A stretch of 64,000 nt of DNA from assembly GCA_001789205.1 (NCBI GenBank), contig MFYT01000109.1:1-64000 (forward strand), given 5' to 3'. Both the position numbers and the translations under genes were made by a program. Under the pieces are notes generated by a model, which saw nothing but the letters and a program-made list of their open reading frames with translations, ran no database searches and was not told where the DNA came from. Source of the stretch: Candidatus Raymondbacteria bacterium RIFOXYA2_FULL_49_16 (GTDB lineage: Bacteria > Fibrobacterota > OXYB2-FULL-49-7 > XYB2-FULL-49-35). Below are positions 5,623-62,959 of this stretch, one piece after another. Every line of letters begins with the position of its first letter. Within the stretch, counting starts at the first letter, position 1.

Positions 5623-8600
5623 ATGAATAAAATTTTAACAATTTCATTCATTGCACTGTTTTCTGTGTTGGGATTCACCCAGACCACGGATACCATCCCT
5701 CAAATCTGGGTTCAACGTTTGGTTACGCCAGACTCCATTTTTTATGAAGGCGCTCCTTCCGGATCTCATTCAACCGTAAATCTCCGCGCATGGGCCAGCA
5801 ATGACTCAATCACCCAGGGCCTTCCTCTCGATGTTATCCTATTAACCGACAACAGTGGTTCCATGGGCACTCGTAATCCCGGCACTCGTGACTGGATACC
5901 CCCAGTCTCACGCATCCAGGGGGCGTATAACGCATGCGTCAATTTTGTTGACAGCACACTGAACATTCATGATAGCGTGGCCCATATGCGTTTCTGCGCA
6001 AAGGTCGACACTCCCCAACCTTACACTAACAACTTTGCGCTTGCAAAAGCAAAAATGGACACAAATATCAACGGCAAACAAACCGTTGGCGGTATCGTAT
6101 ACGAGGGTACCGCTTCCTATACAGGCATCCTTGAAGCAGTACGCTATATGGGGAAAAACGCCAAACCGGGTCGATTGAATGTGTTAATTGCGCTCACCGA
6201 TGGTGAAGATAACGCATCAGGTAGCTACGGGTGGTACTGGACCTTGAACAGAGACCGCGGTTATATTCTACCGAATCTTGGCACAACCAAGACAAGGGCC
6301 GTTGATTCTGTTGTAAAAATCATCGATTCACTGACTGCTTCCGGAATTAATTTTAAAATATTCACCATCAACCTGATGACTTACAGCGACACTACTTATC
6401 TAAAAAGAATCGCACGGCAAGGACATGGTACATGGTCTTATTCAAATTCAGGAGCAGACCTCGACGCCATTTTCTATGAAATTGGCCAAAGCATTTCCGA
6501 CATTGCCGCTGTCAGCCTGATGCCCGGCACGCCAATGATCATTGACGTTCTTGGCCCCGATATCCATTATGTTCCCGGCTCATTTGTGGCCACTACAGGT
6601 ATGGGTTACCAGGTACCCACCTTTCAAGTCGACACAGTGAGTGGGTTTACCAGGCTAAAATTTTTAATCGACACAGTCCGTGTGGGCAAATTCATTGACC
6701 TTAAATACGAGATTACCGCGGCATTGTATACGCCGGACGTAGCCACTGCAAAACAGATGCGGACCAACAACGCCTCAGGCAACAACCCCACCTACTATTC
6801 GCTGGTCCAATATGTTGATGCAAACGATTCAATTGTCACCAGGCCTGTACCCCGGAACTATGTATATGTTAAAAGCGAGATCGGCGGAGTATACCTCTCC
6901 ACGACCGGCGCAGGTGTTCCGGTTACCCCCATGCCATCAACCATTGCGCAAACCTATACCTTTGCCACGCCAGCAACCTATCCCAATACCTTGCTTTATG
7001 CCATAAGAACCGATATTGCCACAGATACCATCGCAAATGTCCTGGTTCCCGCAACATGGTATTTTTATCCCAACCCAACCTGGACAGCCACCACACTCAA
7101 TGGTGTCATTACTAACAACAGAACAGTCGGTGTTACGGTCGCCTACGATAACCATGATACCGCATCTCTCCGTATACGCTATATGTTCAACAACCAGACC
7201 TATGGCGACACCGTACTTTTCTCTTTTACCGACATCTCAGCGCCAGAACAAGTTATCTCAACCCAGATAGAACGCGATACCGCAAGCCATACACAAATAA
7301 CCTCCAGATTTGTTGTCAGGGGCGATACTGCCTATCTGCGGACTTTTTCGTACACAGTATTTGCCCGCGGCCTCACCAACCGGAGTTCCAACATGCCCAT
7401 TAGCGCAACCTGGAGCAAATCCGGCTTTGCTAACTTCGGGCTGCCAACAATAACCGGTGTTGCAACACAAAAAACATTCAGCCTCACTGATATTGCCCAT
7501 GTGAATTTTACGCAGAACGATTCAGGGACAATTCGCATCGACTACAATGGATATACTTCCCAATTCCAGCTTGTTATATACGATACCACTGATTATGATA
7601 CAACAGACAGGGTCGTTTTATACAACAATACATACAGTTTCAATAAAACCACTATCGAAACCAACTATCCTGTGTACACGTCAAACGATGTCTATACCGT
7701 AAACGCCGGTGACTCAATCACCTTCTGGCCCATGTTTTTCGACAACAACAGGAGCATAAACAAATACCTGAGCACAGGGACTGTTTCCTGGACCCTTAAT
7801 GGCAGTTTTGCGGCCAACAGAGCTTATTTCGGCATCAGAGGTTTTACGCCAGGTTCGCAAGACCTCATTATTGCCTCATATACCAATGAATGGGGCGTTC
7901 TCCTGCGCGACACGGTCCGTGTTGGCTGGAACAATGAACCGCACCGCTATATGTCAATTGAATCCCAACCCGGCGTGCCCTACAGCAATGTAACCAATTT
8001 TGTCACCGATACCCTGGTCATTTTAAACACACAGACAGACACGGTCGGCGGTCTCTATGCCGTGGTGCGCGACGGATTAGGATATTGCGTGTCCGACTGC
8101 AACAATGATTACGAAAGCTGGACCGATGCGGGACCTGGCGCAAGTTATATCACTGTTCCGGGAGTAATCACCAGCACTGGCTGGATCTACAAGACCAGCA
8201 ACCCAGCGGCTGCAACAACCGCCATGGTCATTGCCATTGGCCAAGCCAGCTATGGCCTGGGCAACCAGCGCGACACGGTCTTTGTCCGTATCGCGGCCTA
8301 TTCGTACGACAAACTTGACATATGCGCTGCCGCGCCAATCCAGGGTTTCAGTATTGGCGACACCATTCCACGCAATACAGTCATAAGTCTTGCTGCATGC
8401 GAACTTACCGGTAGTTTTCAGGCAAGGGCGCGCCATGATGCCACTCTCTGGGACATTGTGACTGTTTCCTGGACTGTGAAAAACGGAACTGCCCTGAGCA
8501 ATACCTTTCCCCTGTCAGCTCCCAGTATAACCCTTGATCCTGTTGCAGGGACCGCGCGCGACACCCTCTTTGCCACCTATGCTGGCGCAACCACGTTGCG

Positions 8601-11600
8601 CGACACCATGCTCTTTTCCGCGGCGCCAGCCTATTTCATTGGCATCCAGCTCGATTCCACAAAAACAATCACCTCAAATCTCCAGGAAATAACCGTTAGA
8701 GGAAATTTGACCCAGTTGCGCAATACCATGTTTTGGCTCTATGCCATGGGTAATTATAATTGCACAGCAGCCCCTCGAAGCCCGGCTGCCGCAACATGGA
8801 ACACGACTCTCTCGCAGACATGGTTCTCTAGCATGATCAATCAGACCAACGTTTGCTCAGTTTTTGTCAATTTTAACAACATGCCAAACACGCAGGGCAG
8901 CCACAGCGCCAGCGGTCAAATCAGCATCTCCTACACCACTACTCTCGGCAATGTGACTGACAACATCCTGTTCAATATTATCGACACCACTGACTATGAC
9001 ACGCTCGAATACCTCATTGTCGATACCTCTGCCAGCGCCATTGTCACCTTCTCGGAATTTATGGGAAAAAATATCCCCCTGCTCCAATATTCAGCCCCAG
9101 CCGGCTCAACCATTCCCCTGTATGCCACGCTCTACGACCTTAACAACGCCGCAGTCGGTTTGTTCCCCAAACGCATTGGCGCTGACCAGGCCATCTGGCA
9201 AATCCGCCACAGCGCAACCGGTCAGTCAGAGCAGGTAAACGCCACAACATACAATCTTACCAGCACAGGCGCTGGCACAAAAGACACCATTGTGGTTTCG
9301 TATCCAGCCCCCACTGCAACGTTTACCCAGCCAATCAAACCCACTGGCCGCATGACACAGACCATTATTGTTTCCTGGACTGCGGGCACTGGCAGGTTCC
9401 TGCGCATAGTGGACGCGCCAACAACAGGCGCCAGCGACATCACCAGCATATCAATGCAGGCTGGTACCGATACCGTGCATGTCTACGCCATTGTGGTGGA
9501 CCAGTTCAACAACCGCATTGCCAATGGCCCTGTGCAATGGAGTTCCTCCAACGCCACATACATCACCGTGCCAACAAGCACAACCTACGATGGTAAAATT
9601 GTGAAGGCCAGCCAACCCTCAGCACCCATAACAGTCAGTGTGGTTGCGACCCTTCCGGCAAACACCAACCTGGGAAACAACTACTATTCAGGCTCTGTCG
9701 CTCTCTACGATACAGTCACAATCACTATTGGTAATTTTACTTTCGATAGTTTGCGGATCGTTACCTACAACAATCCATACGATTTCACAACCACTGAGAA
9801 CAAAACCATTAGCGGCGATGGCGCAATTGTAAGTTTCTTTGACCTCTTGCTCATGCGTACCTGCGCCCAAAGCGCCACTTTTAAGGCTCAAATCCACAGT
9901 ACCAACCCTGCCATGGGCGTCAATGGCTGGGTTTCCGACCAGGTAGTGACATGGGTCAACAAAACAGATACGTCGCGTAACGCTGTATCGTACACAGTTT
10001 CACCGGTGACCCAGGTCAACCTCGATACCATCAGGGCTATTTCAGGTTTGCTCCATGCTGACATCCATTTTAAGACAACCGCGCCAAACATTGTCAGTGT
10101 CCAGCTTCTGCCCCACCCCGCAAACGGCCGTATCGTGGTTTCCGGCGATTCAGCGTCAATTCGCGACACGTCCATTACCTTTACCGTGACGGGTACCGAC
10201 GAGTGCGGAAACAGCGCGGGCGTCAATGCCGCATGGAATTCGCTCGGATTTACCCGGATCGTTTGGGCAAACAGCTTTGCAACACAGCTGGGGCTCACTG
10301 CGCAATCAACCAAAATAATTAATTTTCTCGACATGCCCAGCGACACCACTCCCCAAAGCGACAGCGGTTACATCGCCATTACCTATACCGACCCTGTATC
10401 AAACATAACCTATACCGACTCAATCAAACTGATAATCCGCGATAATACCGATTACGATACTGTCGATAAAGTGGTCATTGTTCCTGATTCCATGTACCGT
10501 ACCGCGAACAATAAAGACGACTTGTATGCGCAATATTCCAATGTCAACTACACGCAGTTCTCCGGCGATTCCATCAGGTTCTCGGCCCTGCTCTTTGACA
10601 TCAACGCCAACCCAAAATTCCTGGCCAACTACGAAGTAGGGTACAACAATGCGCACGCCTTCTGGTATCTCAACGGCAAGCCATGGGATAATCCCGCCAC
10701 CACGGTTGATTCGGTCTTTGTCTATGGACGTACCGTGCCCGGCGCGGACACCATCGTGGTGCTCTACGGCAATACGCCAGCCACTGCAATCATCCGCGAT
10801 ACTGTTATCATCACCTGGACCGCGGGTCACCAACGCGTGCTCTACATTGAAAGCGCGCCAGGAACCGCGGGTTCCAATACACCCCAACTGGCAAGCACCA
10901 TGGTCTTTACCACGGTCGATAACGGTCGTTCAGACACGGTTTATGCGGTAATACGTGACGAATTCAACAACTTTGTCACCAACGATCCGCTTGAACGGTG
11001 GACCTATGCCTCGGGTGAAGACGACTATTTCGTCTTTCTCAGGTATCCCACAGGCCAGGTCACCAATCTGGGCGTGGTCACCAAGCTCGATTCAAACCCC
11101 CCAGCTACACGAAGCTACCATCTTATTGCAAACATCGTGGCCGGAACGCCGGTCAAGGGCGTCACTCTTTCCAAGACCATTGCCGACACCATTGCCATTG
11201 ATCTTGCCAACTACTCCTTTGTCGAATTGGGCATCTTTGCCGCCTCAAACAACATTATCAGCACCACGGGCGTGGCCTATCCAGTGGGTGCCAGGATCCC
11301 GCAAACCACGGTGCTCACCATGACTTCTTTCGAAGACACAATACGCGTGGAAACGAAAAAGAGGCGTAATGATCTTCCCGCTTCTGACGCCAATGCCTGG
11401 CTAACCCAAAGTGTGTCCTGGAGGCTCTCTGTGCCCGGCGTTGTTTCCAGCGCCCTTTTCCCGGCAACCGTGGCCTCGCGCGCAACCCTTGCGGCCATTG
11501 GCGCTGTCACACTCGACACCCTCGTAGGCACCTCCACAGGCGATGGCCTGAGCGCACGCATTCTATTCACCATTGAAGAGGCCTGGATAGATAGTTTCAT

Positions 11601-14055
11601 AATCATCTACAATCCCGCCGCGGTCATCGCGGGCAGCGGTTTCCCCTTTACCATCATTGCCCTTGATAAAAACGGCGACACCATCACCGATCCATCGCGT
11701 CTTCCCACTGGATTCAACCTCTCGTCGCTCAATTTAATCGTCCATTACAACAACCTCGATACCACTGTGCTGCACGGCGGCACCACCTTTATCTCCGACC
11801 CCTTTACCAATGGAGTGTCCAATAATACGGTGGTTACCTATAGTGCCGGCGCCAATCAGGTGATCATTGAAATACCCTATCCTTACAACGGCGGCATTGC
11901 GATATTCATTGACACGTTCAATATCACCACACGGCCCGGCGAGCCGGATTCCTTGGTGGTCATTAACTATGGCGACTCCACTCCGGTCACCATTGATACG
12001 CTCTCGTCGTTCAACGATGACAATTCCACGCGTACCTTTATCGTACGGCTCTTTGACGAATGGGGCAACCTGATTACCGACAAAACCGTCTATGCGGGCG
12101 TGGACTGGAGTACCCAAGGCGATGGCATCTCATTCGATAAAATCCAGGCAGCCGCTGATCTTATGCAGTACAATGCCTCGGACGACACAGGCATGGGCGG
12201 CATGGGGACCATCAACGCTTTCTATGTACAAAACGACGGCGATTCCCTGAAATATTCTTTCACTATTGTCGTCATTCCGCTGGTGCGCATTCTCGACATC
12301 TCCACGCACGAATGGGTCGGTGACACCACGACCGCGCTGGGCACCGCGGAAATCGAGTCGGTCATTGTTAACGTGTTGCGCCGCGACCTCGATTATCTGA
12401 AACTGCTCATCACCGAAGACTCGCTCGAATATCTCTACGTTAAAAAGCTCAGGGAATTCGGTTACAACGACAAGCGGGATGGATACCTTGACTATCTAGA
12501 CATCACATTATCGCGTCCCTTCACTTTGAAGGAGAAATATGTCTCCGCTATCAAGTTCAAGGCTGAAGTAGACGGATTGCAGGATTCCGTGATATGGAAA
12601 ACCGAGGACTCCATCACCATCAGCGAAACTGAGACCATTGCACGTAAAATACGGCTCCAGGCGCTCGACATGCCCGGCAGCGTTGAACATACGAAATACC
12701 GGCTCTGGCTGCTCCCCAATTCCGTCAACACCAAAGGCGCGTCGCCGCTCGAGACCGGTTTGCTGCCTATTGTCGCCTTTAACAACGACGCTGTCTACGA
12801 GGACGGCAATCTTGCCGGCACCCGCTTCCCCATGCTCATCGGCAGCGGCGCCCCTCTATACGCCACGCCCGACAGTCTCATCACCGATTCAGCTCCGCCC
12901 GTTATCTGGAATTTCAAGCTCCAGAACCACACCTGCGACCTCGATAACCCGGAAAACACAGCCACGATATTCTTCTCAGAACCTGTACAAACCAGTAGTA
13001 TCCCCTCCATTGCTTCGTCCGTTATCGCCTTTGCCTTGGTGAATGGCGACAGCACCGACAGTCTTTTCATGAGAACGCTGATTAAAAATGGATATAGGAC
13101 CACGGTCAACGATGTGGACCATAGCATTGTTTCCTGGGACTACCGCGGCGAGACCGTCAAAACCTTTGCGTATCAGGTCGTCATTGATACGTCCGCAAAC
13201 AGGTTCTTCAAGGCGAACCTTACCAAAATCCGCTTCTCAATAAATCCCTCCGCTGGCCAGGTACTCGATATGTGGGGCAACAAAGCCATGGCTTCCAACA
13301 ATCTGGCGGTCACTCTGGTCAACGATGCGGCCTACAACGCGAAAATCTGCAATCTGACCGGAAACACGGTCGTGGACCGCATGACTGCCATGTCACTAAG
13401 CTGGACCTCGGTCAAAGGCGATGATGGCAGGTATGTGGATGTGCCGGCATTCCCTTTCTTCGGATTTACGGTGAATCTCGACCTCATTACCAACAGCGGT
13501 AACATGAACAATGTGGTCGGCCAATTTACCTTGGGCAACCGGACATACATCATCTGCGATTTCGATACACTCGAGGCCTTTGTCCAGACCGATGTCTCAA
13601 TCTACGATCTGTTCGGTAACACGGTGGCCACCCCAAAAACAAACAAGCTGCTGCACGGGGATTTCACCATACAAGATATCCGGATCGGTACGGGCATCGA
13701 CTCCATACAGCCCAAACTCCCGACAATGTCGCTTCAGGAAATCGAGAGATACTACCGGATATACCCGAGCGACAATCGGGGCGATCCTGACACATTGCGT
13801 CCCATATACCCGGAAACATTCACTCTTGGCTACGAGTTCCTCAAGGAAACAAGCGGACCCCGTACGATAACATCCTTTAGGCTGCCGGTCTGGAACTGTC
13901 TCAATGCAAAAGGCCGTCTTGTGGCGCCCGGCGGTTATATCGCGGTACAATCGATCAGGATAGCCAAGGAACTGACTGAGGCGGTAAAGAAGTTCATTGT
14001 AACGAGCGGTGAAAAGCGTGGGACACGGACCTTTGACAATCTTCCGGTCCCCTGA
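5623..14055 (+). CDS. Giant secreted VWA-domain surface protein with long tandem repeats (2810 aa)
   Basis: The start ATG follows AAGGAG and opens a signal peptide (MNKILTISFIALFSVLGFTQ). Residues ~68-300 form a von Willebrand A domain with MIDAS residues D76-x-S78-x-S80 (DNSGS), a Thr in GTASYTG and Asp in LTDGEDN. The bulk is Thr/Asp/Asn-rich beta-sandwich-like sequence. A unit of about 480 residues is repeated three times; the mark D-[TN]-TDYDT falls at residues 654, 1121 and 1607, and each copy later carries a W[TN].G/N...R.. .IE/D..P stretch and VV.D.FNN. Near residues 2280-2300 an EF-hand-like DKRDGYLDYLDI is seen. No T9SS domain, LPXTG or transmembrane anchor is visible at the C-terminus (ends DNLPVP). 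The likely role is metal-dependent adhesion or matrix formation at the surface; the export route is unknown. The gene is monocistronic, convergent with the AraC-type gene three bases away. Confidence 0.9.
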   Translation: MNKILTISFIALFSVLGFTQTTDTIPQIWVQRLVTPDSIFYEGAPSGSHSTVNLRAWASNDSITQGLPLDVILLTDNSGSMGTRNPGTRDWIPPVSRIQGAYNACVNFVDSTLNIHDSVAHMRFCAKVDTPQPYTNNFALAKAKMDTNINGKQTVGGIVYEGTASYTGILEAVRYMGKNAKPGRLNVLIALTDGEDNASGSYGWYWTLNRDRGYILPNLGTTKTRAVDSVVKIIDSLTASGINFKIFTINLMTYSDTTYLKRIARQGHGTWSYSNSGADLDAIFYEIGQSISDIAAVSLMPGTPMIIDVLGPDIHYVPGSFVATTGMGYQVPTFQVDTVSGFTRLKFLIDTVRVGKFIDLKYEITAALYTPDVATAKQMRTNNASGNNPTYYSLVQYVDANDSIVTRPVPRNYVYVKSEIGGVYLSTTGAGVPVTPMPSTIAQTYTFATPATYPNTLLYAIRTDIATDTIANVLVPATWYFYPNPTWTATTLNGVITNNRTVGVTVAYDNHDTASLRIRYMFNNQTYGDTVLFSFTDISAPEQVISTQIERDTASHTQITSRFVVRGDTAYLRTFSYTVFARGLTNRSSNMPISATWSKSGFANFGLPTITGVATQKTFSLTDIAHVNFTQNDSGTIRIDYNGYTSQFQLVIYDTTDYDTTDRVVLYNNTYSFNKTTIETNYPVYTSNDVYTVNAGDSITFWPMFFDNNRSINKYLSTGTVSWTLNGSFAANRAYFGIRGFTPGSQDLIIASYTNEWGVLLRDTVRVGWNNEPHRYMSIESQPGVPYSNVTNFVTDTLVILNTQTDTVGGLYAVVRDGLGYCVSDCNNDYESWTDAGPGASYITVPGVITSTGWIYKTSNPAAATTAMVIAIGQASYGLGNQRDTVFVRIAAYSYDKLDICAAAPIQGFSIGDTIPRNTVISLAACELTGSFQARARHDATLWDIVTVSWTVKNGTALSNTFPLSAPSITLDPVAGTARDTLFATYAGATTLRDTMLFSAAPAYFIGIQLDSTKTITSNLQEITVRGNLTQLRNTMFWLYAMGNYNCTAAPRSPAAATWNTTLSQTWFSSMINQTNVCSVFVNFNNMPNTQGSHSASGQISISYTTTLGNVTDNILFNIIDTTDYDTLEYLIVDTSASAIVTFSEFMGKNIPLLQYSAPAGSTIPLYATLYDLNNAAVGLFPKRIGADQAIWQIRHSATGQSEQVNATTYNLTSTGAGTKDTIVVSYPAPTATFTQPIKPTGRMTQTIIVSWTAGTGRFLRIVDAPTTGASDITSISMQAGTDTVHVYAIVVDQFNNRIANGPVQWSSSNATYITVPTSTTYDGKIVKASQPSAPITVSVVATLPANTNLGNNYYSGSVALYDTVTITIGNFTFDSLRIVTYNNPYDFTTTENKTISGDGAIVSFFDLLLMRTCAQSATFKAQIHSTNPAMGVNGWVSDQVVTWVNKTDTSRNAVSYTVSPVTQVNLDTIRAISGLLHADIHFKTTAPNIVSVQLLPHPANGRIVVSGDSASIRDTSITFTVTGTDECGNSAGVNAAWNSLGFTRIVWANSFATQLGLTAQSTKIINFLDMPSDTTPQSDSGYIAITYTDPVSNITYTDSIKLIIRDNTDYDTVDKVVIVPDSMYRTANNKDDLYAQYSNVNYTQFSGDSIRFSALLFDINANPKFLANYEVGYNNAHAFWYLNGKPWDNPATTVDSVFVYGRTVPGADTIVVLYGNTPATAIIRDTVIITWTAGHQRVLYIESAPGTAGSNTPQLASTMVFTTVDNGRSDTVYAVIRDEFNNFVTNDPLERWTYASGEDDYFVFLRYPTGQVTNLGVVTKLDSNPPATRSYHLIANIVAGTPVKGVTLSKTIADTIAIDLANYSFVELGIFAASNNIISTTGVAYPVGARIPQTTVLTMTSFEDTIRVETKKRRNDLPASDANAWLTQSVSWRLSVPGVVSSALFPATVASRATLAAIGAVTLDTLVGTSTGDGLSARILFTIEEAWIDSFIIIYNPAAVIAGSGFPFTIIALDKNGDTITDPSRLPTGFNLSSLNLIVHYNNLDTTVLHGGTTFISDPFTNGVSNNTVVTYSAGANQVIIEIPYPYNGGIAIFIDTFNITTRPGEPDSLVVINYGDSTPVTIDTLSSFNDDNSTRTFIVRLFDEWGNLITDKTVYAGVDWSTQGDGISFDKIQAAADLMQYNASDDTGMGGMGTINAFYVQNDGDSLKYSFTIVVIPLVRILDISTHEWVGDTTTALGTAEIESVIVNVLRRDLDYLKLLITEDSLEYLYVKKLREFGYNDKRDGYLDYLDITLSRPFTLKEKYVSAIKFKAEVDGLQDSVIWKTEDSITISETETIARKIRLQALDMPGSVEHTKYRLWLLPNSVNTKGASPLETGLLPIVAFNNDAVYEDGNLAGTRFPMLIGSGAPLYATPDSLITDSAPPVIWNFKLQNHTCDLDNPENTATIFFSEPVQTSSIPSIASSVIAFALVNGDSTDSLFMRTLIKNGYRTTVNDVDHSIVSWDYRGETVKTFAYQVVIDTSANRFFKANLTKIRFSINPSAGQVLDMWGNKAMASNNLAVTLVNDAAYNAKICNLTGNTVVDRMTAMSLSWTSVKGDDGRYVDVPAFPFFGFTVNLDLITNSGNMNNVVGQFTLGNRTYIICDFDTLEAFVQTDVSIYDLFGNTVATPKTNKLLHGDFTIQDIRIGTGIDSIQPKLPTMSLQEIERYYRIYPSDNRGDPDTLRPIYPETFTLGYEFLKETSGPRTITSFRLPVWNCLNAKGRLVAPGGYIAVQSIRIAKELTEAVKKFIVTSGEKRGTRTFDNLPVP

Positions 14056-54948: not shown

Positions 54949-54977
54949 TTGACATTTCATTGAATTTAATATATTTT
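54949..54977 (+). promoter_or_regulatory. Strong promoter placing transcription at the ATG (leaderless)
   Basis: A perfect TTGACA (54949-54954), 17 bases, TATTTT (54972-54977), then six bases to the ATG at 54984. An upstream in-frame ATG (54960) lies inside the spacer and cannot be transcribed from here. Confidence 0.7.
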
Positions 54978-54983
54978 ATATAT

Positions 54984-55394
54984 ATGCGGGGTATTAATCG
55001 CTTAAGTTGTGAAATGAGGGGTTCACTCCTTTCCGTTGCGATTACTGGAGACCTTGAAACCGGCGATCTTATCAATTTTTCCTACAAAGTCATGCGTCAA
55101 CTGGATCGGATCCGCGCCCCGTTCTTTGCCTTGATCAATATTCATGAGGCAACACTTACTATTCTCGAAGGTCTTGAAGGAAAAATCAGCAAGCAGTTCA
55201 ATGATTTGGCACGTGAAAAAAAAACCATTGCCATTGCCTATGTACTTCCGCCGGAAATGTGCAAATTCTACCTAAAGAGAAAATGCCCTGAGAGCATCAG
55301 AGTATTTGAAGATTCGATCGCTGCCATGCATTGGCTCGAAAGCTTGGGCTTAACGACCGAAAAAAACGCCTCTTCCCTTGCCCAGTTTGCCTGA
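54984..55394 (+). CDS. Small protein of unknown function (SpoIIAA/STAS-like features)
   Basis: The start MRGINRLSCEMRG is chosen from the promoter position; the mRNA would begin at the ATG, as no Shine-Dalgarno is present. The 136-residue protein has beta-alpha alternation (LLSVAITGDLETGDLINFSYKVM, PFFALINIHEATLTI, KTIAIAYVLPPEMCKFYL, SIRVFEDSIAAMHWLESLGL) similar in outline to SpoIIAA-like/STAS proteins. The final part FEDSIAAMHWL is typical of that group. The phosphorylatable Ser of true anti-sigma antagonists is not evident. The role is unknown. Confidence 0.72.
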   Translation: MRGINRLSCEMRGSLLSVAITGDLETGDLINFSYKVMRQLDRIRAPFFALINIHEATLTILEGLEGKISKQFNDLAREKKTIAIAYVLPPEMCKFYLKRKCPESIRVFEDSIAAMHWLESLGLTTEKNASSLAQFA

Positions 55395-55581: not shown

Positions 55582-56292
55582 ATGGGAGGTACACACAGTC
55601 ATGAAGTGAGTTTTTTTAAACCAACTTCAGAACACGGCAAGGCCAATAAAAAATTGATCATTGCGCTGGTGATTATCTGGATCGTCTGCGTTTTCGGATT
55701 TCAGGCCCTGCTTATTCTTTTCGCGAAACCAACACCCGAAGCAAACCTCATTTCTTTTGAAACAGCGTGGTCCGGCGCCGCCCAATCAGGAGCTACCGAA
55801 ACCGTGCAGAAAACCCTGGCGCGCACCTTTCTCGCCGTACTGGGAAAAAATATTGCTATTTCAGCGGATCACAAAAAGGTGTTGAAAGAATCACTTTCCG
55901 CAACAGTGCTCTCCCTTGTGCCAGCGGACCAAAAAGCGCCATTTCAGGAAACCCTTGCTCAAAATCCTTCGCTTGCGGTTACAACCGCAATTCAGGTCAT
56001 TGGCCTTTCGGGAACAGGATTCGATAAAATCATGGCCAACCTGCTCCCCTCTTCGCTTGTCCCGGTCGCTTCCGAGGAAATTTCAGCGGAAAACAAGACC
56101 GCGCTTCCCGCGATCATGAAGCTCTACTGCACGCACAATCAGTGCGGTCTCACCACCATGCGCTTTTTGGGTTTTCCTTTCCATTATTGGTATACTGCGC
56201 AGTTCCTTCTCATTCTCTTTGTGGGTCTCTGCTTGATATACGCGATCATGATCGGGCGGATAAACCGGAAGTTTAAATTCATCGAAGAATAA
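55582..56292 (+). CDS. DUF4212-like small subunit of a sodium:solute symporter with a large periplasmic insert
   Basis: The protein has 236 residues with two transmembrane helices: residues ~25-50 (IIALVIIWIVCVFGFQALLILF) and ~200-222 (YTAQFLLILFVGLCLIYAIMI). The end FGFPFHYWYTAQF ... RINRKFKF and the position directly before an SSS-family symporter match the DUF4212 small subunit, normally only about 80-100 residues. Here about 140 extra residues sit between the helices (LISFETAWSGAAQSG ... CTHNQCGLTTMRFL), mostly helical, with two Cys near the end. The insert would lie outside the membrane and could sense substrate. The family call is good, and the insert is novel to me. Confidence 0.78.
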   Translation: MGGTHSHEVSFFKPTSEHGKANKKLIIALVIIWIVCVFGFQALLILFAKPTPEANLISFETAWSGAAQSGATETVQKTLARTFLAVLGKNIAISADHKKVLKESLSATVLSLVPADQKAPFQETLAQNPSLAVTTAIQVIGLSGTGFDKIMANLLPSSLVPVASEEISAENKTALPAIMKLYCTHNQCGLTTMRFLGFPFHYWYTAQFLLILFVGLCLIYAIMIGRINRKFKFIEE

Positions 56293-56323
56293 GGCGACAA
56301 AACCACCAAATCAGGAGAAACAC

Positions 56324-58006
56324 ATGTCTCGCATTCTTAATATCTTCTGGGTATTCATTCTGGGCATCGCAGCATCAGCCGCCTTTGCCGATGCCGCGGC
56401 CAAGGCCACGCAGCTCGAAGGCGAATTCAAGCTAGGACCCGCAATCATCCTCATTATCATGCTCTGCACCTTTGTCATTGTGGGTCTGTTGAACCGGGCC
56501 AAAGACACATCGACCTACTGGGCTGCGGCGCGAAAAATATCGCCTGTTGGCGCAGGCATGGCCATTGCCTCGAACTGGATGAGCGCTGCCTCGTTTCTGG
56601 GCATGGCGGCCATCATGTACGGCTCCGGTTACCACGGTCTCTCGTACGTAGTGGGCTGGACCGGCGGTTATGTACTGCTGCTGGTCCTCATGGCGGGCCA
56701 GATACGGCGATATGGCAAATATACAGCCTCAGACTTCATCGGCGATCGTTATTATTCCCGGGGTCTCAGGGGCGTTGGCGCGGCTGTGGCCATTTTCATT
56801 TCGTTCAGCTATTGTGTCGGGCAATTCGCGGGTATAGGCCTCATGTTCAAATGGATCCTGGGTATAAACTATACCTGGTCCATTATCATTGGCGCCTCGG
56901 TCGTATTGTCCTATACGCTTATATCGGGCATGCTCGGTGTCACAAAAAACATGCAGATCCAATACGTGATCATCATCGTTTCGTTCATGTTACCGCTTTT
57001 TATTCTTATGCATAAATTCGGATACTTTATTATACCGCAGCTGGGTTATGGGCATTTGGTATCGGATATCGTCGATGGCCTTGACAAAGTCAAGGGTGTC
57101 ACGGCTATGGGGCACAATTTTGCCATTCTGCCCTCTCCTGAATTTGCCATGCCCTGGGATCCCTCCACAGGCATGAGCTCCTTCCAATGGATCGCCATCT
57201 GCTTTTCACTCATGATAGGCACCGCCGGCCTTCCCCACGTCATTCAGCGCTTCTACGTTGTGCCAAACGCAAACGACGCGCGCTGGTCAGTGGTCTGGGG
57301 CCTCTTTTTCATATGCCTGCTCTACTGGAGCGCGCCCATATATTCAGCATTCGGCAAAGTTCTTTCAGCAAGTCCCGAAGTCGGCGTACTCGCCAAGGAC
57401 GCGATTGTCGTCTATACGGCGCAGTTGGGTAATGTGTTTCCCCTCATTGTAGGCCTGCTTGCCGCAGGCGCGGTCTCAGCCGCCTTTTCAACAGTCGCGG
57501 GCCTGCTGGTTGCCGGCGCATCAGCCTTCTCGCACGATCTGTATTATAAAACAATCAACCCGGCCGCTTCGGAACGGACACAAATGCTCATCGCACGCGT
57601 CTGTACCATTCTCATGGCCGCTGCCGTGGCCCTTGTCGCGCTCATGAACCTGGGCCTCATTGCCCAGCTGGTTGCCGTGGCCTTTTCCCTTGCCGGTTGC
57701 ACCATTTTCCCACTGTTCCTGCTTGGTATCTGGTGGGGCGGATCGAACCGCGCGGGCGCATGGGCGGGCCTCCTTGCCGGTATCGGAGTTTCGCTGGTTG
57801 CGCTGATCTATTTCGTGGTTGGCAAATTCGGCGGTACGCTTCCGGCGCAAGCATTTGTCAATTACTATCTAAACGCGTGGTATTTCGCCTGGTTTGGGGC
57901 GCCGCTTGCCATCATCGTAAACATCGTTGTCTCAACCGCCACGGGCAAGGACACGCCGGAAAAGATTAAGGAATTCCTTTATCATACGGTGCACGGCAAC
58001 GAATAG
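56324..58006 (+). CDS. Sodium:solute symporter (SSS family) large subunit
   Basis: The 560-residue protein is mostly membrane helices (about 13). It has the SSS core sequence: STYWAAARKISPVGAGMAIASNWMSAASFLG, the FPLIVGLLAAGAVSAAFSTVAGLL sodium-site region, and VQYVIIIVSFMLP. It is of the acetate/VC_2705-like group that works with a DUF4212 small subunit (encoded just upstream). Substrates in this group include acetate and other short carboxylates; the substrate here is not known. An AGGAG site precedes the ATG and a large signalling gene follows in the same direction. Confidence 0.93.
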   Translation: MSRILNIFWVFILGIAASAAFADAAAKATQLEGEFKLGPAIILIIMLCTFVIVGLLNRAKDTSTYWAAARKISPVGAGMAIASNWMSAASFLGMAAIMYGSGYHGLSYVVGWTGGYVLLLVLMAGQIRRYGKYTASDFIGDRYYSRGLRGVGAAVAIFISFSYCVGQFAGIGLMFKWILGINYTWSIIIGASVVLSYTLISGMLGVTKNMQIQYVIIIVSFMLPLFILMHKFGYFIIPQLGYGHLVSDIVDGLDKVKGVTAMGHNFAILPSPEFAMPWDPSTGMSSFQWIAICFSLMIGTAGLPHVIQRFYVVPNANDARWSVVWGLFFICLLYWSAPIYSAFGKVLSASPEVGVLAKDAIVVYTAQLGNVFPLIVGLLAAGAVSAAFSTVAGLLVAGASAFSHDLYYKTINPAASERTQMLIARVCTILMAAAVALVALMNLGLIAQLVAVAFSLAGCTIFPLFLLGIWWGGSNRAGAWAGLLAGIGVSLVALIYFVVGKFGGTLPAQAFVNYYLNAWYFAWFGAPLAIIVNIVVSTATGKDTPEKIKEFLYHTVHGNE

Positions 58007-58027
58007 CTGCCACGTGTTTTCTAATTA

Positions 58028-60604
58028 ATGGTGGAAAGCCCCCTGGCTGAAACGCGGGGGCCTTCTAACAAAGTCATGGTTGCGGAGAAAAAACGCATCA
58101 CACGCATATCAAACGGTTTTTTCGGCCGCATGGCCCTTCCAACGCTGCTAACTATTTGTCTTTTTGTCGTTTCCATTTTCGCGGTCATTATTCCCGCCTT
58201 CAAGGCAAACATGCTCGACCGGAAACGGGAAACCATTCGGGAGCTTACGCGATCGACAGCCAGCGTATTGAAGGAGTTGGAAGGTGAACACCGTGCGGGC
58301 AGGCTGACCCTTGAGGAAGCGCAGGGCAACGCCATCCGTTGCATAGAATCCCTCCGATACGGCGACGAAGGCAAGGACTACTTCTGGATCACGGACATGC
58401 ATCCATTTATGATCATGCATCCGTACAGAAAAGATCTGAACAACACGGACCTCACTGGTTTCACGGACCCCCATGGAAAAAAACTCTTCGTTGAATTTGT
58501 CAACACCGTACGCAAAAGCCGCGCGGGATATGTCGAGTATATGTGGCAATGGAAAGACGACTCCGCGCGTATCGTTCCCAAACTCTCGTATGTGGAGGAA
58601 TTCGCCCCATGGAAATGGATCATAGGCACCGGCATCTACATCGAGGATGTGCGCGCTGAAATCAACCGGCTTACCACATGGCTTATAAGGATTTCCGGTG
58701 TCATTACACTGCTCATGGCAATTCTGCTGCTTATTATCATGCGTCAGGGCCTTTCCTCAGAACAGCGGCGCCGGCAAGCGGAAGAGCGGTTGCGCGAATC
58801 CAAAGAACGGTACCTGGCCCTGGTCGAAGCGAATACTGACGGTCTGATCCTGGCTATTGATGGGGTCTGTGCCTATGCAAATCGACGGGTTCTGGCCATG
58901 ACCGGCTATGGACCGGATGAAATCGTTTCCCAAAATCTGGATGCCCTGCTTTTTGCCAAGGAAAACGATACACCCTTCCCCATCAACGCCCCCTCACCTG
59001 CCGAGGCGCGTCTGAAGAAAAAAAAGGAAGGTTTTGTCGATATTGTCTGCACCGCGACCGACATCTCCTTTTCCGGAAAAAAAGGCAGGGCGCTTTTGAT
59101 ACGGGACATAAGCGTCGAACAGCATGCTGTGCAACGCCGGATGATCGAGGAACGGGAACAATTCATTGCGGAACTTCAAGCAGCCCAGCTTTTCCTCAGC
59201 CAACCGGTGAAAGATATCGCCGCTCCCGTACGCCATTGTCCCATGGCAACACCTGTGCGCGAGGCAGCGGAACTGATGTCGCAGGATCGGTCAGGCGCGG
59301 TCCTGGTCACCTCAACATCAAATGATTTTATCGGCATTGTGACTGACGCGGACCTCAGGGCCCGGTGTGTTGCCCGGAAAAAAGAGGCCACTATCCCGGT
59401 GTTTGAAATCATGAGTTCGCCCCTGGTCACTATTTCGGACAACGCGCTGGTCTACGAAGCAATGCTGCTTATGCAGCACCATGGAATAAACCATCTGGCT
59501 GTCAAAGACGCCCGTGGAAAAATCGTTCAAACCGTAAGCCACCGGGAGGTTTTACAGGTGCACCGGTATTCCTCAACCTTCCTTGTCCGGGAAATCAGCG
59601 CTGCCGAGACAGTGCAGGAGATGGCAGGCAACCGCGACCGCCTGCCCATGCTGATAAAGGCGCTTCTGGACAGCGGCGCCAATGCACGCACGCTCACACG
59701 TATCGTCTCCCAGGTCTCTGACACGGTTGTCCATAAAGTATTGGACCTTGCCATAGAGGAATTGGGCGTTCCTCCCTGCGCCTTCGCCTTTGTGGTCCTG
59801 GGCAGCGAGGGACGTGAGGAACAGACCCTTGCCACAGACCAGGACAATGCCATAATATACGAGGAAAATGCGACTGAGACCGCCCGGAGCTATTTCCTCA
59901 AACTCGGTGAAACAGTCTGCACCAGCCTTAACCGGGTGGGTTTCAATACATGTCCGGGAGAAATTATGGCGAGCAATCTAAAATGGTGCCAGCCCCTTTC
60001 TCAATGGAAGTCCTATTTTTCCCAATGGATCAATACGGCAAATCCGCAGGATCTCATAGATGTGAATGTTTTCTTTGATTTCAGATTTGTCTACGGCGAT
60101 ATCCGCCTGCCCGCGGGTCTGCACGAGCATATCGATAGTGAATGTGGCAATAAAGCGGCCTTTTTCATGCACCTTGCGAAAAACGCCCTGGCAATTAAGC
60201 CGCCCCTGGGCATATTCGGCGCTCTCCGTCTCGACTTAAAAGGGGAACATCCTGAAACCTTTGATATAAAAAAAGCAATGATGCCCCTGGTCGATTTCGC
60301 CCGTATCCAGTCGCTCAGAAAAAAAATCTCCCAGACCAATACACCCAACAGACTTGAAGAATTCACACGGGCTGGGGGTATTGATGATTCACGGCTGAAA
60401 GAGGTCTTACAGGCATACGATTTTCTCATGCATGTACGGTTTAAACACCAGATAGCCCTTATTGAGGCCCACGAGGCCCCGGATAACAACATCAGCCCAG
60501 CGGCCCTCACTGCCATCGAATTGGCCTTGCTGAAAAAAATATTCAGCCAGTTCGAGGACCTTCAGACAAAGCTCAGTTTTGAATTTACCGGAACAGCGGG
60601 ATAA
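58028..60604 (+). CDS. Multidomain sensor: Cache-PAS-CBS pair-DUF294 nucleotidyltransferase
   Basis: The 858-residue protein starts at ATG 58028 (another in-frame ATG at 58076). Order: transmembrane helix (~37-58); periplasmic sCache-type sensor (~60-205, with DYFWITDMHPFMIMHP and WKWIIGTGIY); second helix (~213-240); PAS domain (~260-370); a CBS pair (~400-525, VREAAELMSQDRSGAVLVTS and VYEAMLLMQHHGINHLAV). Then comes a DUF294-type nucleotidyltransferase with VLGSEGREEQTLATDQDNAI and a DUF294 C-terminal domain (to ~850). In Proteobacteria CBS-DUF294 proteins accompany DUF4212/SSS symporters; here the regulator is fused to an extracytoplasmic sensor. It may regulate symport in response to a ligand. 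Confidence 0.88.
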   Translation: MVESPLAETRGPSNKVMVAEKKRITRISNGFFGRMALPTLLTICLFVVSIFAVIIPAFKANMLDRKRETIRELTRSTASVLKELEGEHRAGRLTLEEAQGNAIRCIESLRYGDEGKDYFWITDMHPFMIMHPYRKDLNNTDLTGFTDPHGKKLFVEFVNTVRKSRAGYVEYMWQWKDDSARIVPKLSYVEEFAPWKWIIGTGIYIEDVRAEINRLTTWLIRISGVITLLMAILLLIIMRQGLSSEQRRRQAEERLRESKERYLALVEANTDGLILAIDGVCAYANRRVLAMTGYGPDEIVSQNLDALLFAKENDTPFPINAPSPAEARLKKKKEGFVDIVCTATDISFSGKKGRALLIRDISVEQHAVQRRMIEEREQFIAELQAAQLFLSQPVKDIAAPVRHCPMATPVREAAELMSQDRSGAVLVTSTSNDFIGIVTDADLRARCVARKKEATIPVFEIMSSPLVTISDNALVYEAMLLMQHHGINHLAVKDARGKIVQTVSHREVLQVHRYSSTFLVREISAAETVQEMAGNRDRLPMLIKALLDSGANARTLTRIVSQVSDTVVHKVLDLAIEELGVPPCAFAFVVLGSEGREEQTLATDQDNAIIYEENATETARSYFLKLGETVCTSLNRVGFNTCPGEIMASNLKWCQPLSQWKSYFSQWINTANPQDLIDVNVFFDFRFVYGDIRLPAGLHEHIDSECGNKAAFFMHLAKNALAIKPPLGIFGALRLDLKGEHPETFDIKKAMMPLVDFARIQSLRKKISQTNTPNRLEEFTRAGGIDDSRLKEVLQAYDFLMHVRFKHQIALIEAHEAPDNNISPAALTAIELALLKKIFSQFEDLQTKLSFEFTGTAG

Positions 60605-60836: not shown

Positions 60837-61388
60837 TTGGCAGCTCCTTACTGCATGGTCTTCTCCAACAAGCCCGATTGGTATTTAATCTTTGTCGAGC
60901 CTGAACAATTCCTCCAGCTAACCCTGTTTCTGAAAAACCATGGCTATGAACGGAAAAAAGACATAAAATATGATGGCTATTCAAAAAATTTCTACCGATT
61001 TGAAAAAAAGACCGTGCATCAAGATAAATCAATGCTCATCAGGGTAAATATTTTTTTCTCCATTCCCGAACTTCTCCGAATACAGAACAATGAAGACTAT
61101 AAAAAAATCGCTGATAGCAATACATTTAAAATTGAAACCATCCCACCCAGGCAACTACAGGCCAAGTCCATACTAAAGAGGCGCATACGATATTCCCTGT
61201 TAAAACAAAGGATCGCCAAAACATTCTGGGTTCTTGGTCTTGTTGGGGTATGTGCAGTACTGGGTAAAGCTGTGTGCATGGCACTCAGCAACGATGCCCC
61301 AATAAATGAGAACCTGATAATCATTGAAAAACTTGATCATCTGGAGAGAATGGTCAAAGACCTCTCCAAATCTGAAAATAAACCTTGA
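60837..61388 (+). CDS. Single-pass membrane protein of unknown function (183 aa)
   Basis: The start is uncertain: TTG at 60837 or ATG at 60855 (MVFSNKPDWYLIFV). GGGAGA is about 20 bases upstream of the TTG, not ideal. Residues ~8-105 are soluble with Arg/Lys/Phe-rich sequence (YERKKDIKYDGYSKNFYRF). A basic stretch (ILKRRIRYSLLKQRIAK) precedes one helix (TFWVLGLVGVCAVLGKAVCMA) and a short acidic coil tail (IIIEKLDHLERMVKDLSKSE). I recognise no domain. The stop overlaps the TTG start of the next gene (TTGA), so both are made together. Confidence 0.68.
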   Translation: MAAPYCMVFSNKPDWYLIFVEPEQFLQLTLFLKNHGYERKKDIKYDGYSKNFYRFEKKTVHQDKSMLIRVNIFFSIPELLRIQNNEDYKKIADSNTFKIETIPPRQLQAKSILKRRIRYSLLKQRIAKTFWVLGLVGVCAVLGKAVCMALSNDAPINENLIIIEKLDHLERMVKDLSKSENKP

Positions 61389-62959
61389 AAACCAGAGAAA
61401 ACACCCTCTACCTGCTGCTTACTGTTCTCTTTTTGCTTGTGGCAGTCCCAAACATATACGCTAAACTGTATATCTGGAGCGGCCACTATAGCCCTGTATG
61501 GGACGACCCCATGAATTGGAGCACGCCCGATGACGGGACTTGTCCCAATACCATAGCTGATACTGCTGTCTTCGATTCTTTGTCCAAGGGACCCTGCGAA
61601 CTCAAACGCGATATCAGCCTGCAGAACCTGGAATGCCGTCCTGGTTTCGAATATTCCCTGGATTTGTCGTTCCGTACACTGATGATCGCGGGAAACGCCG
61701 ACTTTTCCATGGGAACCCTCATTGCTGATGACGCAAATATAATCTTTGAGGGACCTGCAAAAAATGTGCAGGTTTTTAAAACCAATCCAAACGCGCGATT
61801 CAACAGTATAACAGTTATTGGTCAAAGCACAGTGCAGATTGCTGGCGAAATGTTTGAATGCGGTGAATTGACCCTTTTCTCCGGGGCCTGGAGATGGAGC
61901 ACTGGCCAGAACATTATTTCCCGGGGCATGACGATAAGCGACAGCGCTGGAATGATCTTTGATGATAATGTGACCGTGAACATCACATCGGGCAACGCGG
62001 ATCTCAGGGGATTGAACAATCTGACGCTTGGCACAGGAGACACACTCTGTTTTTCCGCACCGGCCGACACCCAGGTGTTTATTCCAAGAACAGGCTTGCT
62101 GTTTCCCAATATAAAGAAAATGAACGCTGGCGTGGTACTGGTCTCAGGCGGCGCTTTAAAGGCCGGTGCGCTCATCCTTATTGACGGAACCTGGCAATGG
62201 GGAGAACAAGGGATCGATACGGTCCTTTTAATAAAAAAGAATGAGAAATCAACCATGATTTTTGACAGTAATACAGTGCAGTTAACCGGAGGTGAGATCG
62301 GATTCCTGGGGTGGACGAGTGTAAACGCCCAGACCATGCCTTCGGGATTCCAGCGTACGACTCAACAAACCCAAGCCAAACGAGATGATTTGCGATATGG
62401 CATAACAGGCCAGTCGTGGTTTACTTGGCTGCCGGATACCGTGGTCATCAGGGAAAGGAACTTGGCGTTGGAATTGGGTATAAACCTCTTTTTCCCCTCC
62501 CCTGCGTTATTCACCACTGATACTGTCGACAACCTTGGATACACCATGGGGATACTGTTTCCCATATATATTCAACATGCGCTTTGCTGGTACAGTGTCA
62601 GGGCCATTATGCATGGTTCGGCCGCTCCCTGGGAAAAAGGGAGGGTCTATCTTACCGGGATTAACGAGCTTCTCGTGGGCAAGGCGGTATATATCAAAAA
62701 AATGCCGTTCGAACTTTCACCTTTTGCGGGTCTTGGGTTTGACAATGGGATTGTGATAAGCAACTCTTCCCAGGAGGGTTTCAAAGGCCATCAGGTGCAC
62801 TACTTTCTCTATGCCTCTCTCGGCGCTTTTATGCGGCGGAATGCCACAGTATTGAGGCGGGACCTTGTTGAGGGGCTAAAAATCAGCTTTTCCAGCGCGC
62901 TAATACCCAATGAAGACACTAAAGTACGCCTCAGCATATCATTGGTGATCGGTTATTAA
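61385..62959 (+). CDS. Secreted passenger-plus-barrel-like protein (524 aa)
   Basis: TTG overlaps the preceding stop as TTGA. A signal peptide ([17 protein letters not shown]) is followed by W-S-G....[10 protein letters not shown], the opening of autotransporter-associated beta-strand/G8-like passenger regions. Short beta repeats rich in Gly/Thr/Asp follow (~80-330), such as GTWQWGEQG and GAWRWSTGQ. The last ~170 residues ([15 protein letters not shown] ... [11 protein letters not shown]) look like outer-membrane beta strands ending in an aromatic residue. It could be a small autotransporter-like or barrel protein of the outer membrane. The function is unknown. Confidence 0.75.

Follow-up and report, generated by a model that had tools for sequence, protein, structure and literature searches.

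An enlarged DUF4212 symporter subunit and a Cache-linked DUF294 regulator in a gene neighbourhood found across many phyla

Introduction

What is the function of a sodium/solute symporter locus in which the small subunit carries a large additional domain and the adjoining gene joins an extracytoplasmic sensor to a predicted nucleotidyltransferase? Such a locus is present in a 64,000-nucleotide stretch of DNA from Candidatus Raymondbacteria bacterium RIFOXYA2_FULL_49_16 (contig MFYT01000109.1, positions 1 to 64,000), hereafter called the window. The original prediction regarded it as a single module that senses a solute outside the cell, transports it and signals inside by nucleotidylation. An orphan riboswitch candidate has been described upstream of the widespread DUF4212/VC_2705 symporters, whose substrate was given as unknown (PMC6429828). 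A cAMP-CBS-nucleotidyltransferase, Pflu5625, belongs together with the acetate symporter ActP to the CrbS/R acetate regulon, and no target of it is known (PMC5715377).

Results

The locus comprises three genes:

55582..56292, + strand: enlarged DUF4212 (TIGR03647) symporter small subunit, 236 aa (open reading frame; Pfam/NCBIfam; 77 long homologues; RBS-like aaaggag upstream)
56324..58006, + strand: VC_2705-family sodium/solute symporter large subunit, 560 aa (TIGR03648)
58028..60604, + strand: membrane-anchored sCache_2-PAS-CBS-CBS-DUF294-DUF294_C regulator, 858 aa (open reading frame; Pfam)

The small gaps between the genes (31 bases, then 21 bases) and their common strand indicate an operon, which the three genes apparently form. 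RBS-like sequences precede the small-subunit gene and the symporter gene. No clear RBS was found upstream of the first ATG of the regulator gene, which may actually begin at the internal Met17. A scan of the operon for promoters and terminators did not rise above chance level. The operon leader matched no Rfam family, and the TIGR03647 RNA motif linked to known VC_2705/DUF4212 systems, which possibly lies outside Rfam, was not found in it. Upstream of the operon, a 144-aa open reading frame (54960-55394) appears STAS/SpoIIAA-like by eye and has no significant family match. Two further regions of the window deserve mention: positions 61385-62959 encode a secreted-looking 524-aa protein that neither Pfam nor NCBIfam matched, immediately following a 183-aa open reading frame with a membrane segment visible by eye, and positions 5623-14055 form a single 2810-aa open reading frame, with a sub-threshold Ig-like (Big_1) match only, whose product is probably a giant surface protein.

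The small subunit adjoins the large subunit and scores above the cut-offs of DUF4212 (57.2 bits, cut-off 30) and TIGR03647 (46.9 bits, cut-off 26.05). The match falls into two stretches that are split by an insert between the two helices of the family, for which the model has 77-79 positions. An insert of about 140 residues had been predicted; it is indeed present, but measures about 130 residues (about 54-182). Because of this insert the protein departs from the compact two-helix form of DUF4212/TIGR03647, and we class it as an enlarged variant. Its parts are as follows:

55630..55722, + strand: transmembrane helix 1, residues 17-47 (AlphaFold2 model; first half of DUF4212)
55741..56127, + strand: inserted all-helical domain, residues about 54-182, predicted periplasmic (AlphaFold2; side deduced from the protein ends, see below)
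56188..56271, + strand: transmembrane helix 2, residues 203-230, after the invariant FPFHY motif (AlphaFold2; conservation)

The AlphaFold2 model, based on 71 aligned sequences (mean pLDDT 92.7, pTM 0.82), places about seven helices in a bundle that spans residues 54-182. Since both the N- and C-terminal ends of the small subunit are basic, we infer that this domain lies on the periplasmic side of the membrane. Its fold found no match by Foldseek among 350,542 PDB chains (best E 2.5, probability 0.03), and a profile search for a known fold returned nothing either (best E 0.12). Over its full length the protein has, among others, K89, M179, H185, T191 and FPFHY as invariant positions. Within the insert, K89 and M179 are invariant and W63, V86 and G88 nearly so, while identity to the window copy is about 20-46% across relatives and the length varies. 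A pair of cysteines, C183 and C188, had been pointed out. Both are present in the window protein, but Cys occupies the C183 column in only 5 of 78 sequences and the C188 column holds mostly Ser, Asn or Gly; a functional Cys pair was therefore rejected as not conserved. When the insert profile was run on 396 genomes, it matched four long-subunit genomes and, marginally (8.6e-4), a 132-aa open reading frame in genome G400 that adjoins an ATP-synthase-beta-like open reading frame (by eye) away from any symporter. Clear matches being confined to long subunits in this set, use of the insert as a domain elsewhere was also rejected. In L138 (6395-7633), a DUF4212 protein apparently has some 320 additional residues ahead of the domain, as read from a 413-aa open frame.

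Related loci were collected by a symporter scan of species-representative genomes, which gave 80 loci at 69-82% identity. Three of these are cut by contig ends and lie outside the following count. In all 77 loci where the contig covers the upstream gene, that gene encodes the enlarged subunit, mostly with 217-258 aa, so that this part of the original prediction stands; L040 is the sole spanning locus with a strongly reduced insert. These loci come from Ignavibacteria, Bacteroidota, KSB1, Cloacimonadota, Planctomycetota, Verrucomicrobiota and others. The long-subunit arrangement is thus not peculiar to the window genome, but a variant that occurs across many phyla. That it reflects a misassembly or a fusion of two genes was rejected and is improbable to the point of being negligible, given that independent assemblies contain 77 homologues in this length class and that the whole protein is modelled with confidence.

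Ordinary DUF4212 loci, with a compact subunit, belong to a separate and distant symporter clade. A broad draw of 248 genomes, surveyed in two runs on nearly the same genomes, contained DUF4212 genes that nearly always are short and match the 79-position model without interruption. The same was true of a second draw of 145 genomes, the one exception being the centre genome, present there as a second copy. Ordinary subunits mostly have about 80-150 aa. The symporters of 38 ordinary loci are only 31-42% identical to the window symporter, and the long and ordinary sets fall on opposite sides of a branch with support 100 in a symporter tree made by a quick method, for which the long set was picked by similarity to the window, so that intermediates may exist outside it. 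The nearest relatives of the window operon on this tree are from KSB1 and Melioribacteraceae. Among the 168 genomes searched in the window's own phylum, no other one showed the enlarged subunit or the full fused regulator, and the operon was therefore probably acquired horizontally.

The window symporter scores 500.4 bits with TIGR03648 (cut-off 320.75) and 165 bits with the ActP acetate symporter model TIGR02711 (cut-off 1099). Its Ser389-Thr390 align with the SS pair of vSGLT, which we take to be the Na2 (sodium) site. Ser or Thr occupies this pair in 82/82 long loci and in 37 of 38 short ones, the remaining one having a gap. The system resembles known VC_2705/DUF4212 pairs in its small-large gene order, in scores above the cut-offs, in the two helices of the small subunit and in the Na2 Ser/Thr, and differs from them by the periplasmic helical domain. 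Enlarged symporters of about 630-770 aa were noticed in DUF4212- or DUF485-linked loci L127, L128, L130, L180 and L182. Family matches are split in all three of those tested (L127, L180, L182), which, with the enlarged size, suggests an insertion within the symporter itself.

The regulator has the following domains:

58214..58669, + strand: sCache_2 sensor, residues 63-214, with pocket residues Y118, W120, H131, F154, Y171, W173 and K185 (Pfam; PDB 4k08, 5g4y/5g4z)
58805..58960, + strand: PAS domain (weak), residues about 260-311 (PF00989 exactly at cut-off; above the TIGR00229 cut-off)
59225..59557, + strand: CBS pair (Pfam, two stretches; boundary of the first repeat approximate)
59639..60049, + strand: DUF294 nucleotidyltransferase, residues 538-674, with intact GSEGREEQTLATDQDN motif (Pfam, 164.8 bits)
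60158..60586, + strand: DUF294_C helical substrate-binding domain, residues 711-853 (Pfam, 130.9 bits)

The fusion to an sCache sensor and a PAS domain is as it had been predicted, the PAS match being weak. No cNMP-binding domain was matched by Pfam in this protein. The GS...DxD catalytic motif (GSEGREEQTLATDQDN) is present together with DUF294_C, which belongs to a KNTase_C/HEPN-related clan (PMC3710099), and the DxD is intact in 45 of 46 aligned regulators. Among the sequence relatives found for DUF294 there was no solved structure. Signalling by nucleotidylation is a prediction from the intact catalytic motif.

The best PDB matches of the Cache domain are the sensor domains of the sCache_2 chemoreceptors Adeh_3718 (4k08, acetate bound; E 3e-36) and PscD (5g4y/5g4z, propionate bound; E 3e-31). 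In PscD the ligand is contacted by Y90, W92, H103, F126, Y143, W145 and K156 (PMC5062169). The seven equivalent residues are kept in the window protein and identical in 46/46 aligned sequences and in 9 further regulators. They are also found in L003, a Cache protein of unrelated type; the pocket is therefore common in this Cache subfamily and fixes the class of ligand rather than the ligand. The domain is thus a predicted C2/C3-carboxylate sensor, in agreement with the earlier guess of acetate or propionate at the level of the class. Whereas the output of PscD and Adeh_3718 is a chemotaxis signalling domain, that of the window regulator is a predicted nucleotidyltransferase.

The predicted recurrence of this fusion beside symporter genes was borne out. 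A Cache-DUF294 fusion lies nearby in 28 of 36 fully covered long loci, and one more has a bare DUF294 protein. Six long-subunit genomes yielded no regulator match when searched with a single protein, though these MAGs may be incomplete. A DUF294 protein is near only a few ordinary DUF4212 loci, and none of these proteins has a Cache domain. Of those examined, three (L116, L128, L154) are cNMP-CBS-DUF294 proteins and one is without recognised input domain; the domain composition thus indicates that the input domain of the regulator is exchanged, cyclic-nucleotide input on one side and Cache plus PAS on the other. The window regulator shares with the Pflu5625 type the CBS pair, DUF294, DUF294_C and the association with an acetate-type symporter, and has a membrane-anchored sCache_2 and PAS in place of the cyclic-nucleotide domain.

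An independent set of loci was obtained by running the fused-regulator profile on the 396 genomes, the loci being picked by the regulator and not by the symporter. The full or nearly full fusion was found in 12 genomes, whereas the other 88 matching genomes hold DUF294 forms without Cache. These 12 include all four genomes in which the insert domain is clearly present. In each of the other eight (L175-L182), the regulator adjoins a symporter whose small subunit is short, and Pfam confirmed this subunit as DUF485 in the six tested; the five symporters tested scored best with ActP or MctC, below the cut-offs. A metallophosphoesterase is found beside the regulator in 7/8 and a DcaP-like porin in 3/8 of these loci. 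These symporters are akin to ActP-YjcH (DUF485), which like the window system is an SSS symporter with a small two-helix subunit, but which differs in symporter subfamily and in small-subunit family (no BLAST similarity to the DUF4212 subunit). As the loci were chosen by the regulator, there is good evidence that the fused regulator belongs with short-carboxylate symporters, and likewise that, as a cassette, it is independent of the enlarged DUF4212 subunit. The notion of a single module holds in so far as subunit and regulator are usually linked, but the two are separable: the regulator also occurs with ActP/MctC and DUF485, and some long loci have no linked regulator.

Other genes recur near long-subunit loci, namely those for a porin (38), a TPR membrane protein (46), a metallophosphoesterase (21) and a TIM-barrel protein (13). 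The porin (L012:5972-7201 and 37 further loci) is a confident barrel in structure prediction. The member tested with Pfam had no match, and NCBIfam gave none of significance. Its best match in both sequence (4e-5) and fold (6e-15) is DcaP (6eus). DcaP porins serve carboxylic acids and are needed for growth on di-/tricarboxylic acids in Acinetobacter (PMC12338516). The window genome itself yielded no relative of this porin. The membrane-anchored TPR protein (L062:9620-10396 and 45 further loci) is conserved and directly follows the symporter in Bacteroidales-type loci.

Discussion

We consider it fairly probable that the operon encodes a C2/C3-carboxylate uptake unit with a nucleotidyltransferase regulator whose sensor has been swapped. 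The two-subunit sodium-coupled system would import short monocarboxylates such as acetate, propionate or similar acids. An external C2/C3 acid would bind the periplasmic Cache domain of the regulator, the CBS pair may add the energy state of the cell through adenine nucleotides, and DUF294 would pass a nucleotide on to a target, for which the symporter and an acetate-activation enzyme are the likeliest candidates. This transfer would match uptake, or the metabolism that follows it, to supply. Points against this reading are the lack of an AcsA above the curated cut-off in the window genome, which makes its use of acetate uncertain, the missing porin relative in that genome, and the six long-subunit genomes without a regulator match.

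The regulator might instead leave the symporter untouched and act on something central to the cell, such as an acyl-CoA enzyme or a transcription route; the two would then be neighbours only because both answer to the same acids. We regard this as less likely than not. The regulator pairs with unrelated small subunits (DUF4212-long, DUF485) and different symporters, so that a conserved contact between regulator and transporter is not required. Unlinked copies of the regulator exist, a metallophosphoesterase often accompanies it, and the cAMP-CBS version of P. fluorescens is simply co-regulated with ActP (PMC5715377). However, conservation of the neighbourhood is very tight across phyla, in the long loci as in the independent set (8/8).

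As for the small subunit, its two DUF4212 helices would pack on the symporter, and the helical periplasmic domain would sit over or beside the outer face of the latter. Most likely this domain would capture substrate, or contact the sensor or an outer-membrane channel. It is unlikely, though worth weighing, that it is a passive structural addition for folding or stability in an otherwise ordinary DUF4212 symporter. Such a part might well show the divergence, the scarcity of invariant residues, the variable length and the reduction in L040 that were observed; against this, the domain is kept in all spanning relatives across phyla, with the invariant and near-invariant residues given above. The more elaborate proposal that the insert is a docking or substrate-handling domain, joining the symporter with either the Cache sensor or the neighbouring outer-membrane channel in one envelope-spanning complex for sensing, uptake and nucleotidylation, must be called improbable.

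More improbable still is a transceptor, with the enlarged subunit as sensor part and signalling rather than uptake as the main function. There is a precedent in CrbS, where a symporter domain is used within an acetate-sensing kinase (PMC5715377), and the insert is a conserved extracytoplasmic domain. The Na2-site Ser/Thr is nevertheless kept in every long locus, a dedicated separate Cache sensor is already encoded, and the frequent neighbour porin fits uptake.

The combination of a long-subunit symporter with a Cache-fused regulator is real and widespread, and it is apparently undescribed. The part of the literature that was covered contained no mention of DUF4212, brought DUF294 and a symporter together only for nitrogen metabolism in Bacilli, and held nothing that combines Cache, nucleotidyltransferase, CBS and symporter; coverage being partial, this absence is weak evidence of novelty.

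Under the uptake reading that we favour, the neighbourhood evidence gives this branch of DUF4212/VC_2705 symporters a testable substrate class, the C2/C3 carboxylates. The regulator would represent an unusual type of signalling, in which an outside sensor is joined to a predicted nucleotidyltransferase output and not to a kinase, a cyclase or a chemotaxis domain, and the small subunit carries a predicted domain that matched no fold in the PDB although it has been retained in many phyla.
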